Positions 5,500 to 57,585 of a stretch of 64,000 nucleotides of DNA are shown here, in pieces (the first letter of the stretch is position 1; every line of letters starts with the position of its first letter). The notes beneath the pieces were generated by a model. It saw only the letters and a list, made by a program, of their open reading frames with translations, was not told the DNA's origin and searched no databases. The stretch is taken from the NCBI GenBank assembly GCA_021292105.1, contig CM037865.1, positions 20,663,428 to 20,727,427 on the forward strand, written 5' to 3'. The DNA comes from Anadara kagoshimensis (taxonomy: Eukaryota; Mollusca; Bivalvia; Arcoida; Arcidae). Position numbers and translations under genes: made by a program.

Positions 5500-6760
5500 C
5501 ATTGTAAAATCCAATAATTTGAATGTTTAACAAGCGTAAGTGATTGCAATGCGTTATTGAATTGAAGCATGTTGTTCTAATACATCATACAGACAAAAGT
5601 ATAATCTGATTGAAGACGTTTCATGTTAGTTTTTAATGATTTTAGGTATTTTTATTTTCGGTTTTCTTTACAGATCATACGTCATGCTGTTTGAGATTAT
5701 AAACATGCATTCATAATCATGTTAAATAAACAGCGAATATTTTCTCCTGTTTTGTTTTGTTACTTCTTTGATACAGAACTTGAACAATAGATGCCTTTTA
5801 CGAAAAATGAAATCTAGCCTTTATGGCATTAGATCTTTAGAAAATCTGTCTTATTCTTTATCTTTTTTTTATTTTTTAACTGTTTTTCTCTTTAATATTT
5901 TTGCAAATTATAAATTTATAATTTCGTATGTACATGTGTAGATATATAGCATACTGAGAGAGAAGAGAGAGAGAGACAGAATGAGAGAGAGAGTCTAATG
6001 AGAATTATTATAAGAACACTCATAAACTAACAACGACTTATCTACAAGTAAGATATGTACATGGTTACCAAAAGCTTCTTCAACATATATAACTATATAA
6101 ATAGATTAAAGCCTTAAGTATCTGAAGACGGCAATCATGCACACATATTTCGGAAAAGGATTATATCATAAACTTATGCAAGATTTAAAAAAATGTACAT
6201 TTAATGTACAATATAAGATAATTTTTTCTATAATAAACAATATCATTCTGTACTCACATTAAAATAAATTCATATAAAGACGGTTCTTTTTCCATCTCTA
6301 ATGACTTTGAGAAATCAATTGTTGTAGAATCCTAGTAGAATTGTCTATACAAAACGATAAATCACATACACTAATGTGTTAGGAGTCGGACTGCCCGGGA
6401 TTATATAACAGTCTATTGTATCTAGTAAATAGATTTTACAGACAACAAATGTACATATGGGCAATATGTTGATAAAAATATATATACTTAATGTTCTTAT
6501 TATGAGGCGCAATTTCGTGTATTCCATATACGGATATCGCTGTAAGTTTTAAGCAATTTTAAGTAAGTTCATTGCAAATGTAGGTTTCCTTCAATTTAGG
6601 TTGTGTTTTTATATTCGGTTTTCATGCTGTTTAAGATCATTTGTATTAATACATATTACTGATAATGGTTTAAGCAATAAGCCTTGATCCTTCATTTATA
6701 TACATTTTATGTCTCCTAAACAAAAAGAAAAGGACTTTATTGTCAAACACAAAAATACCT
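5500..6760. other. Anonymous AT-rich stretch with a short GA-rich tract
   Basis: At 5956-5993 lies an imperfect (GA)n tract interrupted by AAG, ACA and ATG steps. Otherwise no gene or recognisable repeat is seen. Confidence 0.4.
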
Positions 6761-6761
6761 G

Positions 6762-6935
6762 TCAATGTCCAAATCTTGTTCATAAGCAAATCTAGTTAAA
6801 CACGTTATTTTCAACTAGGTAAGTGAGACCGGTGGTTCCGGAAGGGCAAGCACCTCCTGTTTAGGAAGCTACAACCGCCACATATGAAATCAATATTTAG
6901 TATAAAAGGAACATATACCTACCGTCAAATAGACG
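6762..6935 (-). mobile_element. Retrotransposon 3' end (family A), minus strand
   Basis: Well-preserved 3' UTR on the minus strand: CAATGTCCAAATC, TAAACACGTTA, GGTAAGTGAGACCGGTGGTT, CCGGAAGGGCAAGCACCTCC, GCTACAACCGCCACATATGA. It stops just before the pol-coding part. Confidence 0.75.
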
Positions 6936-22635: not shown

Positions 22636-22856
22636 TGACGTCATATAATTGTGACGTCATGGTGTGTTCCGAAGAGGTGGGATATGGTGTTTTCAGAGGG
22701 ATACACGATGTTATCTTCCATCTTCCAATGTTGGAGATAGAGATTTCCGCTTGAAGAAACGATGGAAGAAATTTCTATCTTCACCTCCACGTGCTTATCT
22801 TCCTCCTCGTGCGGCTTTCAGTGACGTCACAATCAAAGGACAATTAAATGACGTCA
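22636..22856. promoter_or_regulatory. Four CRE-like TGACGTCA palindromes in an inverted arrangement
   Basis: TGACGTCA occurs exactly at 22636, 22652, 22822 and 22849. The left pair is separated by TATAATTG and the right pair by CAATCAAAGGACAATTAAA, which read as rough inverted copies (ATTTAATTG and GATTG). TGACGTCA is the full cAMP-response element bound by CREB/ATF factors, but the inverted layout suggests the pairs may be termini of a small transposon. The interior is GC-richer and contains TCTTCCATCTTCC and TCTTCACCTCCACG. Confidence 0.35.
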
Positions 22857-23033
22857 TATCGTCATATGTATAAACATACAATTTGTATAAACTAAAATCA
22901 GGTACATTCTGTCCGATGGTCATATTTATTTTTATGTAAAACGTTAAATAACAAAGTTAGATTTACAAAGATGGCGTCGAAGTCGATGTAACTGATACAT
23001 CAAGCCAAAAATTGTCATCAAAATGGAAGAAAA

Positions 23034-23192
23034 AGAATCAATCATGAGTTTATCCATGTAGGATAGGGAAATCTCACCCTCTCGGGGTTAAATATTTTTG
23101 TCAAAAACTCGGCAAGCCTCGTCTCTGACTGAAATATTCAACCCCTCGGGTGAGATTTCCCTATCCTACATGGATACTCATGATAGATTCTA
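23034..23192. mobile_element. Long hairpin element (~160 bp)
   Basis: Arms of about 66-70 bp (23034-23103 and 23127-23192) are almost perfect inverted copies, sharing TATCCATGTAGGATAGGGAA and ATCTCACCC with a loop of ~23 bp (AAACTCGGCAAGCCTCGTCT). The close match of the arms implies recent origin or ongoing correction. No coding capacity. Confidence 0.75.
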
Positions 23193-23199
23193 TTATTCT

Positions 23200-23680
23200 C
23201 CACCCTGATCACATGATCCAAAGATCCAATCAAATTACAGATAGTATCGTATTTTTCTAATGAGGTATAATAAAAAACGTTATACAGAGAAGCTATAAAA
23301 CTTACATTATTCTTGTTTGAATTATTTACACGGCCGGCAAAACAGGAGACTGATCATAAGAAAACGCATGTTCAGACGGATGATGCTATACCTTTATATT
23401 GTAATGGTGATTGAGGCAACATTCTTGACTGACAATAGCGAGTAGAGTAGAGATTTAGTAATTGTAAGACTAAATATTTCCCCGGAGAAAACCACCACCG
23501 ACCTAAATTATTATTGTTGCCATTGTTGTTGCTTTTGTTGCCGTTGCGTTATGTAATAAGGTGTATTTTATAAAGTTTGGCCATTTGGGTAAAAGTGGTC
23601 ATGATCATACATTGACTTGTGCGTTGAATAAAACTTAATGTATGTCGTATGTTTTTCATCTATTTTATAAATCACTATTA
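23200..23680. other. Anonymous stretch
   Basis: No feature recognised apart from a short TTGTTGCCATTGTTGTTGC run near 23513. Confidence 0.35.
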
Positions 23681-27714: not shown

Positions 27715-27955
27715 TGATAAATAGTGAAAGTGAAATCGCAATACAAACACATTTCTTTTATGCAAGCATTCGATCTGTAGAAAAACAATTTGATAAGTAG
27801 CAAAAGTGATATTGCAGAATAAACACATTTCTTCTTGTGTGACGATTCGATTTGTAGGAAAACCAGTTTGATAAGTAGTGCTAGTGGAGGTGAAATTGTA
27901 ATATAAACACTTTTCTCTTTATGTGTACATTCGTTTTGTAGAAAAACAATTTTCC
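27715..27955. repeat. Three-copy ~77-bp tandem repeat
   Basis: Units begin TGATAAATAGTGAAAGTGAA (27715), TGATAAGTAGCAAAAGTGAT (27791) and TGATAAGTAGTGCTAGTGGA (27869). Each continues with ATAAACACATTTCTT-like sequence and CATTCGATTTGTAGAAAAAC. The third unit has a small GGAGGTGAA insertion. No frame is shared by the three units. Confidence 0.8.
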
Positions 27956-38471: not shown

Positions 38472-38633
38472 CAGTCAAACCTGTCTATAAAGGCCACCCA
38501 AGGGAACCAGCAAAAGTGGCCTTTATGTACAGGCTCAAATAATATGAATAAAGAACAATTGGGATACAATTCTACTGGTCTTTATAAGCAGGTGGCCTTT
38601 ATATAGAGGTGGTCTTTAAGGCAGGTATGACTG
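38472..38633. mobile_element. Pogo-like MITE, 162 bp
   Basis: Ends are CAGTCAAACCTGTCTATAAA and, inverted, CAGTCATACCTGCCTTAAAG. It is flanked by TA on both sides (38470-38471 and 38634-38635). CAGT...ACTG termini with a TA target duplication are characteristic of pogo/Tc1-mariner-derived MITEs. Interior AGGTGGCCTTTATATAGAGG and AAGTGGCCTTTATGTACAGG form a second inverted pair. Confidence 0.82.
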
Positions 38634-52330: not shown

Positions 52331-52489
52331 CAATCAAACCTGTCTATAAAGTCCATCCAAGAAAACCAGTAAAGGTGGCCTTTATATGCATGTTCAAATA
52401 ATTTGAATATAGAACAATTGGGATATATTTCTACTGGCCTTTAAGCAGGTGGCCCTTAAATAGTGTGGCCTTTAATGCAGGTTTGACTG
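52331..52489. mobile_element. Pogo-like MITE, 159 bp, second copy
   Basis: Ends CAATCAAACCTGTCTATAAA and, inverted, CAGTCAAACCTGCATTAAAG with TA on both sides (52329-52330, 52490-52491). It is collinear with the 38472 copy throughout, sharing GAACAATTGGGATA, TTCTACTGG and AAGCAGGTGGCC. Confidence 0.85.
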
Positions 52490-53880: not shown

Positions 53881-54670
53881 AATGTTGAAAGTGAAAGAAA
53901 AACAGGAATGGGACCGTAACACTGCCGGAATAACAGTCATAAACTTTTAACTGGGATGAGACATATTACATTCTTAATTTTATCATAATCATTTGCGATG
54001 TTTCATAATTTCTAAACCCATCAAAGTTTAAAAAATAAATTACAATTCATCCTAATTCATCCTAATATTATATATTAAATGAAGATTAATTGCCTTAGCA
54101 GGTTTTAAAAGCAAATTAACTTCGTTTTTAAATCCAAAAATAAGTTATCATCTTTAGAAGCATTTTGAAAATACTGCAAATTTATGATTTGCAAATGGTA
54201 TAAATAGACCATTATGACATTATGATAATAGCTTTTGACATTGAAATGCAACATGTTATTTTGTATGCAAACAGGTTTCAAAGTTTTTAGGTGTGGAATA
54301 CATAACCAAGTTACTTGAAATTTAAATTATTTTAAGCTCCCAATTTATATTATTTTACCTAGAGTTTTTCTTGAAATTTTTTATATTTCTTTTAACAGTT
54401 CAGTTCCCTTATTCAACAAATTTTAACACGGTAATAAAAATACACACACAGAAGATTTTGTACAAGGTATTATATAGACAAAATATAAAACGGCTCACTA
54501 GATATATATTTGTTAATTGTTTCCTAAAACAGTTGTGATATTTATACGACAAAGTACCAAACTCAAACTGAAAAATTACAATTATTTTTGCAATATTGTC
54601 AACTAAAGACACAATTCGAATATATCAATTACAACAAATGTTTCAAATACTCCTTTTACATATCAAAGTA
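53881..54670. other. Anonymous AT-rich stretch
   Basis: 54080-54280 (GATTAATTGCCTTAGCAGG, AAGCAAATTAACTTCGTTTT, GATTTGCAAATGGTATAAAT) resembles 58015-58200 (GATTAACCGCCCCGGCACG, AAGCAAAATTAACTTCTTTT, GATTTGCATAAGGTATAAAT), so a ~200-bp segment is present on both sides of the satellite-bearing element. No gene is seen. Confidence 0.4.
54080..54280 (+). repeat. Flanking direct repeat, left copy
   Basis: Matches 58015-58210 in order over ~200 bp (TTAACTTC.TTTTTAAATC, AAGTTATCA, GATTTGCA.A.GGTATAAATAGA, ATTATGATA). Both continue toward GTAAACGTTTTAAG / GCAAACAGGTTTCAAAG-like sequence and later CCTTATTCAACAAATTTTAA / CCTTGTTCAACAAATTTTAA. Confidence 0.6.
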
Positions 54671-55395
54671 TATGACAACAAGAGGCCCAATAGGGCCTGT
54701 GATGCTCAACTGGCAGCTAATTTACATTTTTGATAAATAACATGCAAATCTTGTGAAATGGCATTCCCCCTCCATTTTACAATTGCAACTGGAACCAAAG
54801 TGGTTGGAAACCAAATCTGCATTGGTTTTTCATGTTATTGCTATGTATAGGAACAGAAGCCAACTTGGATTTTGGCTGATATGCCAGACACAACTTTGGA
54901 TTACTGTTACTAAAGGACTTTTCATGCTGTATTAGGTTAGAATTGGCCAATTGAGGAGAAAATTTTCAATGATTTGATTGCAACAAACATCTTATTTGTA
55001 CACTGCCTGAAAATTGGGTCAACAACTTTTTTTCAGGAAAGGTAAAACGTTAGGTCATAACCTTCACAATTGACCTTGACCTCATTTTGAAGGTAATTAC
55101 AAGAATATTTCAAAACTGAAAACCCCATGTCATTATCTGATCAAATAGTGAAGATATAACAATTTCAGCAATTTTTTAACCTTTCTCTATACATCAAAAT
55201 ACTAGTTGAATTAATATCTACAACATTCTAATATATATGCCTATAGAAAAAGTTAATAGTTTTCAAGATAATTAAGCATTTCAGTATTATTTCATATCTG
55301 TGACCTTGACTTTTGAACCCCTGACCTTAATCTATTTATCACAATGATCGTTACATCAATATCAACAATATTCTAATATACATGCCTATACAAAA

Positions 55396-57480
55396 CTAGA
55401 CATCTACTTTCTAATTCTCAAATTTGAACTAAATCGATCCATAACTAAACAGGTAATGACCATTTATAGGTTTTTGCTATTTATAGCAATGGTGGCCATC
55501 TTGGATGTAGCAGGAAGTTGATTTGTACAAACTTTAATCTACTCCACCTAGGGACTTTCCACACCAAATTTGGCATCATTTGGGTATGTGGTTTCAGAGA
55601 AGAAGATTTTCAAAGAATTGCCTAAATTTAGCATCTAATTTGCATATTCCGCTAATTACGAGCAAACAGAAAAAGTTACAAAAAACCTGTTACATATATT
55701 AAATGGCTAGACATCTACTTTCTAAATCTCAAATTTGAACTAAATCGGTCCATAAATAAACATGTAACGACCATTTATAGGTTTTTGCTATTTATAGCAA
55801 TGGTGGCCATCTTGGATGTAGCAGGAAGTTGATTTGTACAAACTTTAATCTACTCCACCTAGGGACTTTCCACACCAAATTTGGCATCATTTGGGTATGT
55901 GGTTTCAGAGAAGAAGATTTTCAAAGAATTGCCTAAATTTAGCATCTAATTTGCATATTCCGCTAATTATGAGCAAACAGAAAAAGTTACAAAAAAACCT
56001 GTTACATATATTAAATGGCTAGACATCTACTTTCTAAATCTCAAATTTGAACTAAATCGGTCCATAAATAAACATGTAATGACCATTTATAGGTTTTTGC
56101 TATTTATAACAATGGCGGCCATCTTGGATGCCGCACGAAGTATATTTGTACAAACTTTAATCTACTCCACCTAGGGACTTTCCAAACCATATTTGGCATC
56201 ATTTGGGTATATGGTTTCAGAGAAGAAGATTTTCAAAGAATCGACTAAATTTAGCATCTAATTTGCATATTCCGCTAATTACGAGCAAACAGAAAAAGTT
56301 ACAGAAAAACCCGTTACATATATTAAATGGCTAGACATCTACTTTCTAAATCTCAAATTTGAACTAAATCGGTCCATAAATAAACATGTAACGACCATTT
56401 ATAGGTTTTTGCTATTTATAGCAATGGTGGCCATCTTGGATGTAGCAGGAAGTTGATTTGTACAAACTTTAATCTACTCCACCTAGGGACTTTCCACACC
56501 AAATTTGGCATCATTTGGGTATGTGGTTTCAGAGAAGAAGATTTTCAAAGAATTGCCTAAATTTAGCATCTAATTTGCATATTCCGCTAATTACGAGCAA
56601 ACAGAAAAAGTTACAGAAAAACCCGTTACATATATTAAATGGCTAGACATCTACTTTCTAAATCTCAAATTTGAACTAAATCGGTCCATAAATAAACATG
56701 TAACGACCATTTATAGGTTTTTGCTATTTATAGCAATGGCGGCCATCTTGGATGCCGCACGAAGTTGATTTGTACAAACTTTAATCTACTCCACCTAGGG
56801 ACTTTCCACACCAAATTTGGCATTATTTGGGTATGTGGTTTCAGAGAAGAAGATTTTCAAAGAATTGCCTAAATTTAGCATCTAATTTGCATATTCCGCT
56901 AATTACGAGCAAACAGAAAAAGTTACAGAAAAACCCGTTACATATATTAAATGGCTAGACATCTACTTTCTAAATCTCAAATTTGAACTAAATCGGTCCA
57001 TAAATAAACATGTAACGACCATTTATAGGTTTTTGCTATTTATAGCAATGGCGGCCATCTTGGATGCCGCACGAAGTTGATTTGTACAAACTTTAATCTA
57101 CTTCACCTAGGGACTTTCCACACCAAATTTGGCATCATTTGGATATGTGGTTTCAGAGAAGAAGATTTTCAAAGAATTGCCTAAATTTAGCATCTAATTT
57201 GCATATTCCGCTAATTACGAGCAAACAGAAAAAGTTACAAAAAAACCCGTTACATATATTAAATGGCTAGACATCTACTTTCTAAATCTCAAATTTGAAC
57301 TAAATCGGTCCATAAATAAACATGTAACGACCATTTATAGGTTTTTGCTATTTATAGCAATGGCGGCCATCTTGGATGCCGCAGGAAGTTGATTTGTACA
57401 AACTTTAATCTACTCCACCTAAGGACTTTCCACACCAAATTTGGTTTCAATTGGCCCAGTGGTTTCAGAGGAGAAGATTA
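55396..57480 (+). repeat. 312-bp satellite array, 6.7 units
   Basis: Units begin CTAGACATCTACTTTCTAAA at 55396, 55707, 56019, 56331, 56643, 56955 and 57267, so the period is 311-312 bp with almost no length drift. The last unit is cut after ~210 bp, where TTGGCATCATTTGGGTATG is replaced by TTGGTTTCAATTGGCCCAGT. Each unit contains TTGCTATTTATAGCAA (a short dyad), GGCCATCTTGGATG and TAGGGACTTTCCACACCAAA. Two sequence types of the GGCCATCTTGGATG region alternate irregularly. Confidence 0.95.
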
Positions 57481-57486
57481 AAGTTT

Positions 57487-57538
57487 ACGCACGGACGCAC
57501 GCACGGACGCACGGACGCACGGACGCACGGACACACGC
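57487..57538. repeat. (ACGGACGC)n-type microsatellite
   Basis: Variants of ACGGACGCACGGACGC run for ~52 bp just inside the 3' hairpin of the element, the position where pearl-type elements carry their microsatellite. Confidence 0.93.
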
Positions 57539-57552
57539 TTCACCATGGCATA

Positions 57553-57580
57553 AGCTCAGCTGGCTATAGCCAGTTGAGCT
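57553..57580. other. 3' terminal hairpin of the satellite-bearing element
   Basis: AGCTCAGCTGGC, loop TATA, GCCAGTTGAGCT: 11 of 12 pairs plus one G-T wobble. It is probably the 3' end structure of a rolling-circle element. Confidence 0.85.
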
Positions 57581-57585
57581 AAAAA

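Follow-up and report, generated by a model that had tools for sequence, protein, structure and literature searches.

A chimeric non-autonomous Helentron with a 312-bp satellite-like array in Anadara kagoshimensis, and an autonomous relative with the same ends

The DNA analysed here, referred to as the window, is a stretch of 64,000 nucleotides from contig CM037865.1 of the bivalve Anadara kagoshimensis (assembly GCA_021292105.1), and at positions 54677 to 57585 it contains a repeat-cored mobile element. Its sequence organisation makes it very probably a minus-strand non-autonomous Helentron (HINE) of chimeric make-up, in which the 5' module, with its T run, hairpin and microsatellite, and a 312-bp satellite-like array belong with an autonomous Helentron of the same genome, here called family A. 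The element has the same ends as family A and its array lies at the same position. It has dispersed recently, and a sister copy is inserted beside an A run without target duplication. The host genome searched was the assembly of 1,115,223,567 bp in 36 contigs; contigs are denoted by C and a number (C1, C2, C13), and loci that were read by L and a number.

Organisation of the element

The features of the element are given below in window coordinates, "canonical" meaning the minus-strand reading and subTIR standing for subterminal inverted repeat.

54677..57585, minus strand: whole HINE, 5' end on the right and 3' end on the left; the ends are the same in 20 of 20 fetched pairs and in copies on C13, C15 and C18
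54677..55178, minus strand: 3' module, about 500 bp of unique sequence, of which the last 40 bp alone match autonomous family A (95%)
54683..54698, minus strand: 3' palindrome, AGGCCC-TATT-GGGCCT in canonical reading (AGGCCC-AATA-GGGCCT on the forward strand)
54704..54714, minus strand: 3' subTIR, GCCAGTTGAGC in canonical reading (forward GCTCAACTGGC)
55179..55395, minus strand: another repeat, of 145 bp and in about 1.5 copies, 77-87% like various units of the array at the 5' end of autonomous family B, with vestigial stretches at 55179-55250 and 55324-55395
55396..57479, minus strand: satellite-like array of 312-bp units (6.7 copies, 96% matches), 6 of them full and one, on the canonical 5' side, incomplete at 212 bp
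57437..57486, minus strand: conserved segment of the 5' module, recognisable within the units too (about unit positions 169-212)
57487..57537, minus strand: microsatellite, GTCCGTGC in canonical reading (forward ACGGACGC), marking the left flank of the HINE
57554..57579, minus strand: 5' hairpin, made of the subTIR GCTCAACTGGC (57579-57569), TATA and the inverted repeat (IR) GCCAGCTGAGC (57564-57554), with 10/11 pairs
57581..57585, no strand: A run at the terminus, a T run when the 5' end is read in canonical orientation, placed by alignment of another insertion, L011, with five empty sites; probably target DNA

In the published HINE layout (PMC7492417, PMC4067079), the 5' flank consists of a subTIR, a complementary IR and a microsatellite, and the 3' flank of a subTIR and a palindrome. 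Because this layout fits on the minus strand only, the element was assigned to that strand, on which its order is TTTTTAGCTCAACTGGC-TATA-GCCAGCTGAGC...GTCCGTGC...array...GCCAGTTGAGC-ATCAC-AGGCCCTATTGGGCCT-CTTGTT. HINE subTIRs measure some 11-15 bp and lie near both ends; here they are GCTCAACTGGC and GCCAGTTGAGC, complementary at 11 of 11 positions. The hairpin at 57554-57579 supplies the complementary IR with the GTCCGTGC run on the same side, and the palindrome AGGCCCTATTGGGCCT stands 5 bp past the 3' subTIR. The 212-bp partial unit that ends the array merges into the conserved 5' flank.

An initial annotation, made from the sequence alone, had named hairpins, inverted motifs, an array and a microsatellite, and all of them were found where it placed them. 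Its strand has to be reversed: its left hairpin corresponds to the 3' palindrome and its right one, GCTCAGCTGGC-TATA-GCCAGTTGAGC in forward reading (57554-57579, with GCCAGTTGAGC at 57569), to the 5' end.

Copies, boundaries and insertion sites

Parts of the element are found many times through the genome, at frequencies well beyond those expected by chance. The end motif GCTCAACTGGCW has 2,034 occurrences against 98 for its reversed control, while the 31-bp 3' hairpin end (1,579 occurrences) and the 312-bp unit junction (2,512), both searched with up to 3 mismatches, had 0 in their controls. The left boundary at 54677 recurs exactly in 29 of the 40 scored matches to positions 54670-55270 (query position 8; the rest start at positions 1-11), these 40 being drawn from 2,644 candidates and including the window itself.

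Among 100 listed places of GCTCAACTGGCW, 20 of the subTIR pairs lying less than 10 kb apart were fetched. The neighbouring left hairpin sequence and the right IR are carried by all 20, and exact AGGCCCAATAGGGCCT by 18. What lies between these ends varies from the 312-bp array only, through 145-bp repeats only (L012, L026, L028), to both, so that the same ends enclose other cores elsewhere in the genome, a co-occurrence on which the initial annotation had made its rolling-circle interpretation depend.

A further subTIR pair on C1, 11.2 kb apart, also has both marks, with an altered palindrome. It was rejected as an autonomous candidate: of its scanned frames, three in number, two belong to a reverse transcriptase and one had no match, and the genome search with the Rep profile PF14214 described below gave no match there. 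An 11.3-kb element with similar ends at L059-L060 (C1:31714566-31726600) holds a reverse transcriptase gene in two separated parts.

Two copies are almost indistinguishable from the window element, array included. The copy on C15 is 99.97% identical, with a single gap and no mismatch in an alignment of 2,910 columns, and that on C13 is 99.76% identical, with 1 mismatch and 6 gap positions. The three copies sit in unrelated flanks. The window copy therefore moved very recently, and its array was complete on arrival; expansion of the array at this locus, as first proposed, is contradicted, since the C13 and C15 copies hold the same 6.7 units.

Insertion without target duplication was seen at a sister copy, L011. 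Its joined flanks match 39 of 40 scored places (from 162 candidates) continuously across the junction at 80-85%, the single exception being L011 itself. In the five empty sites that were read, the element falls between TT and an A run (...TT/AAAAA...), so that at this one insertion the target is T-rich and unduplicated, as is usual for HINEs. L011 (C1:14404670-14408859) and L023 (C2:762516-766708) are HINEs of 99.85% identity inserted at the same nucleotide of two repeat copies. Transduction of a 3' flank from one to the other was considered and rejected, both flanks being about 81-83% alike, as befits corresponding positions in two members of another repeat family; the shared site would instead reflect a strong site preference or gene conversion.

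Pattern scans of IMG/VR with the 5'-flank segment and with the right-end motif running into the host flank gave 0 matches, which carries little weight. A literature text search for the letters of the element ends found 26 papers, of which the 20 listed have titles without a bearing on it.

An autonomous Helentron with the same ends

A search of the genome with the Helitron_like_N profile (PF14214) gave 104 matches, and none of the 14 controls was matched. Nineteen of the matches have equal score and profile range and make up family A; 16 of them lie in an open frame of 2,529 amino acids (aa). One family A match, on C1, is flanked by 5'-type and 3'-type subTIR matches, and the offsets measured in this copy were used to predict both ends of nine further copies. 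All 10 were fetched, and in each the termini stand at the predicted places, with the 5' subTIR in 10 of 10 and the 3' subTIR and palindrome in 10 of 10; the 5' IR is intact in nine and damaged in one. The flanks of the 10 copies differ and their lengths agree within about 20 bp. The relative with Rep and helicase that the initial annotation had called for thus exists, sharing the termini at both ends of every copy checked, and together with the other cores found between the ends it upholds the proposed Helentron-type (HINE- or Pearl-like) identity.

One copy was read through and measures 23,485 bp from end to end. The domain scan of the family A frame, done in two adjoining pieces, found Helitron_like_N (9.5e-26), PIF1 (5.1e-23), DUF6570 (6.6e-23), Herpes_teg_N (6.3e-9) and, C-terminally, Exo_endo_phos_2 (1.1e-5; 25.7 bits against a Pfam cut-off of 27.4, with endonuclease motifs present). 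The motifs HVH, YIVSYISK, GGAGVGKS, GDFN and SDH are visible, corresponding to HUH, double-tyrosine, Walker and endonuclease motifs. A single frame accordingly holds the combination that defines a Helentron, namely a Rep with HUH and two tyrosines, a PIF1 helicase and a C-terminal apurinic/apyrimidinic (AP)-type endonuclease. Among the 120 protein relatives listed of 816, the named ones come from the bivalves Argopecten, Pecten, Saccostrea, Pinctada and Mytilus; the exceptions are an invertebrate metagenome and two metagenome-assembled genomes that bear the names of bacterial symbionts. The best match is 73%.

The copy that was read has a 312-bp period at positions 99-1208, adjoining the 5' hairpin. 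It aligns at 94.7% with canonical positions 1-1206 of the window element and at 98.0% with the corresponding stretch of locus L016, and its two full, well-conserved units have 0 mismatches to two L016 units. Locus L009 matches family A at 99.94% and 99.57% on two sides and is apparently an internal-deletion form of it. To judge from how they begin at the 5' end and how little they vary in length, the remaining copies of family A would hold the array as well. Since array and ends stand side by side in the partner too, the satellite seems to be an integral part of the transposon and not a chance acquisition, and family A appears to be a full-length, enzyme-encoding element able to move the window element.

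Shortly before the 3' end of the family A copy (22829-23423, L085) lie the remains of a degraded element, with 312-bp units at about 76% and an old 5' hairpin, as if the present 3' end had been taken from an older inserted HINE and an earlier 3' end bypassed. The PF14214 matches are unevenly spread: C3 (69.9 Mb, 6.3% of the assembly) has 24 of the 104 against about 6.5 expected by length, though these are not independent of one another. Among 100 exact HINE 3' ends listed of the 1,579, 13 are on C3 against 26 on C2, which is of similar length.

The 312-bp array

Units in the window are 94-99% identical to each other. The homogeneity first attributed to the array therefore stands in absolute terms, yet the units are not much more alike within elements than between them: across 133 units the mean difference is 4.2% within elements (451 pairs) and 5.2% between them (8,327 pairs). 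When near-identical copies, L009 and L014 are dropped, leaving 92 units of 13 elements, the difference is 3.9% within elements and 4.4% between elements at different positions. In this smaller set, variation between elements is lower for the unit nearest the 5' end (2.9%, 78 pairs) than for those at the six places that follow (3.9-5.3%). The suggestion that 312 bp is a dimeric unit was rejected, the consensus having no half-unit periodicity: shifted by 156 against itself it is 33.3% identical, about as much as at the next-best shifts.

Although the array arrived at this locus intact, it is not wholly passive, and growth within elements does occur. The nearest or tied nearest relative of 44 of the 92 units is within their own element. 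In the copy on C18 there are 11.7 units against 6.7 in the window, with 4 differences in the 3' module (about 720 bp) and 0 in the 106-bp 5' module; near-identical units recur at a spacing of 3 and 4 units, units 3 and 6 being identical. The number of units thus changes by blocks between near-identical elements.

Exact unit junctions were listed for C1 and the first 9.2 Mb of C2, where 100 form 21 clusters. An exact subTIR lies within 6 kb of 20 of these. Three have no exact 5' subTIR among the matches listed; in 17 of the other 18 the nearest exact junction is 265-309 bp from it, and in one 609 bp. As in HINEs generally, the central array has a constant orientation in these 18 clusters. No long free 312-bp array is found among these 100 junctions, so the idea that the transposon seeds satellite DNA finds no backing here, element ends being near 20 of the 21 clusters.

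Other tandem repeats occur in the window. Short ones with related units, TGGTCTTTATAAGCAGG and TGGCCTTTAAGCAGG, lie at 38576-38626 and 52435-52482 and perhaps belong to another mobile element family. An 84-bp tandem repeat (2.9 copies, 74% matches) lies at 27722-27952.

A second autonomous family and the 145-bp repeat

Family B is a second autonomous Helentron, of which one copy of about 18 kb was read. Its frame of 2,611 aa encodes a protein 49.5% identical to that of family A, and 21 PF14214 matches score like it. The subTIRs of family B are GCTCACCTGA and TCAGGTGAGC, unlike those of the window element. Next to its 5' hairpin region comes a 145-bp array that is 77-87% like the repeat in the window element, so that an array close to the 5' hairpin is common to the two autonomous elements read. 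Tandem repeats of 63 bp are found in the N-terminal half of both Helentron frames (family A 6199-6764, 9 copies; family B, L086, 7938-8680, 11.8 copies). Downstream of the family B 3' end, at L087/L088 (about C9:18131056-18132220), lies a different and apparently complete HINE with the subTIR GCTCACCTGAG and 6.6 copies of a 144-bp repeat near its 5' hairpin.

Alternative explanations

Several points weigh against assigning the window element to family A. Its 3' module and 145-bp repeats do not derive from family A, which matches the last 40 bp alone. HINE/Helentron pairs in other animals are reported to be more than 95% identical, the HINE being a simple deletion derivative (PMC4067079), whereas here the identity is 94.7% over 1.2 kb and the 3' half is foreign; locus L009 does appear to follow that pattern, which is reported in other animals and not for oyster elements. 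Units of family A differ on average from HINE units by 5.8% (254 pairs), and HINE units of different elements from each other by 4.5% (7,556 pairs), L009 and L014 being left out of the comparison. The full array was seen in one family A copy, and its presence in the rest is deduced. The endonuclease match falls just below the Pfam cut-off, and a downstream 240-aa frame resembling RPA is weak (Rep_fac-A_C 0.0046, below cut-off). The empty sites concern L011, another copy, and not the insertion in the window. Finally, none of the 40 listed places of the 3' module has a listed Rep match within 300 kb, which leaves room for another autonomous element. Such an element, as owner of the 3' module and the 145-bp repeats, could be what moves the window element, family A having lent the 5' half by recombination or template switching. 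The 145-bp array at the 5' end of family B and the HINEs L012, L026 and L028, with 145-bp repeats and no 312-bp array, are in keeping with this, as is the foreign 3' module. We nevertheless regard it as doubtful, given that family B has other subTIRs and that the subTIR and palindrome of the window element match family A at both ends.

That the array is instead a pre-existing satellite captured as filler DNA, and no part of the Helentron, is one of the published scenarios (PMC7492417) and would fit HINEs with the same ends but different cores. It is improbable in view of the array at the same spot in the family A copy, the near-fixed distance between 5' subTIR and nearest junction in 17 of 18 listed clusters, the lack of a long free array among them, and the 5'-flank segment recognisable within the units; a satellite may still have been captured early, before families A and B split. 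Short inverted repeats and hairpins at both ends could also suggest a miniature inverted-repeat transposable element (MITE) or a foldback DNA transposon with terminal inverted repeats, as Pearl was first described. The repeats are subterminal, however, the two ends are unlike, and this reading is contradicted by the empty sites, with no target duplication at the L011 insertion tested, and by a partner with the same ends that encodes Rep and helicase, which leaves it very little room. Assembly artefact or segmental duplication in place of transposition has in its favour that L011 and L023 occupy one and the same position within two copies of a different repeat, but it is already contradicted by copies spread over many contigs, whose flanks differ while their boundaries stay constant, and can practically be set aside.

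Discussion

A chimeric HINE that uses the ends and array of family A remains the best explanation. In the mechanism that we propose, the family A protein would nick at the 5' T run and hairpin, the strand displaced by rolling-circle synthesis would pass through and carry the array, and synthesis would halt at the 3' palindrome. The array travels whole at such a jump, and the number of its units changes when blocks of several units are duplicated or lost. The 145-bp repeat in the middle and the 3' module derive from a different Helentron lineage, and the foreign 3' half suggests recombination or template switching between lineages.

The closest published system is Cg_HINE of Crassostrea gigas (PMC7492417). 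Like the window element it has a 5' subTIR, IR and microsatellite (of GTCC type), a 3' subTIR and palindrome, a satellite-like array of fixed orientation, no target duplication and T-rich targets, and some Cg_HINE elements hold two arrays, as this one does. Its monomer consensus is 138-181 bp, against 312 bp here. Its autonomous partner could not be identified in that study, whereas here there is a candidate with the same termini that bears the array. The Pearl elements CvA, CvE and CvG are bivalve non-autonomous Helentrons with short tandem core arrays (PMC7492417, PMC11136912); compared by description, their core of about 160 bp differs from the 312 bp found here. The DINE-1/HINE-Mo elements and Helentrons (PMC4067079) likewise have subTIRs, an IR, a 3' palindrome, a preference for TT and a partner with Rep, helicase and endonuclease, and some of these HINEs hold tandem repeats. 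Mite HINEs in the same report are described as simple deletion derivatives of their partner, while the window element is chimeric, its 3' half being of foreign origin. Herpes-tegument-like deubiquitinase (VTD) domains are described in Helentrons of animals including molluscs, and the Herpes_teg_N domain and C-terminal endonuclease of family A reproduce an arrangement reported also in molluscs (PMC9741609). The Helitron-related satellite DNAs CgiSat02/03 of C. gigas, again compared by description, have 437-bp monomers (PMC8268682), so a 312-bp unit is not in itself surprising.

HINEs with satellite cores are thus already established (PMC7492417, PMC8268682, PMC11136912), and those bearing satellites form a visible part of the oyster genome (PMC7492417). 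The C. gigas study could tie no autonomous element to them, which left open there both the origin of the satellites, by capture or as an intrinsic part, and the enzyme responsible for their movement. The advance here is an autonomous partner bearing the same array; in the open-access literature we found no report of such a partner in bivalves, Repbase and subscription papers lying outside that search.

It is conceivable, though on present evidence unlikely, that the 5' array serves a function in the Helentron and is no passenger, each autonomous lineage keeping its own satellite (312 bp in family A, 145 bp in family B), and that bivalve genomes gain dispersed satellites as a by-product. Were this so, the repeats might perhaps act as binding or melting sites for Rep and helicase where rolling-circle synthesis starts. 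A multi-copy Helentron with the same termini, the same array and an open enzyme frame makes, together with the HINE, a concrete pair for transposition assays, and the growth of the array can be traced between elements that differ by few bases outside it.

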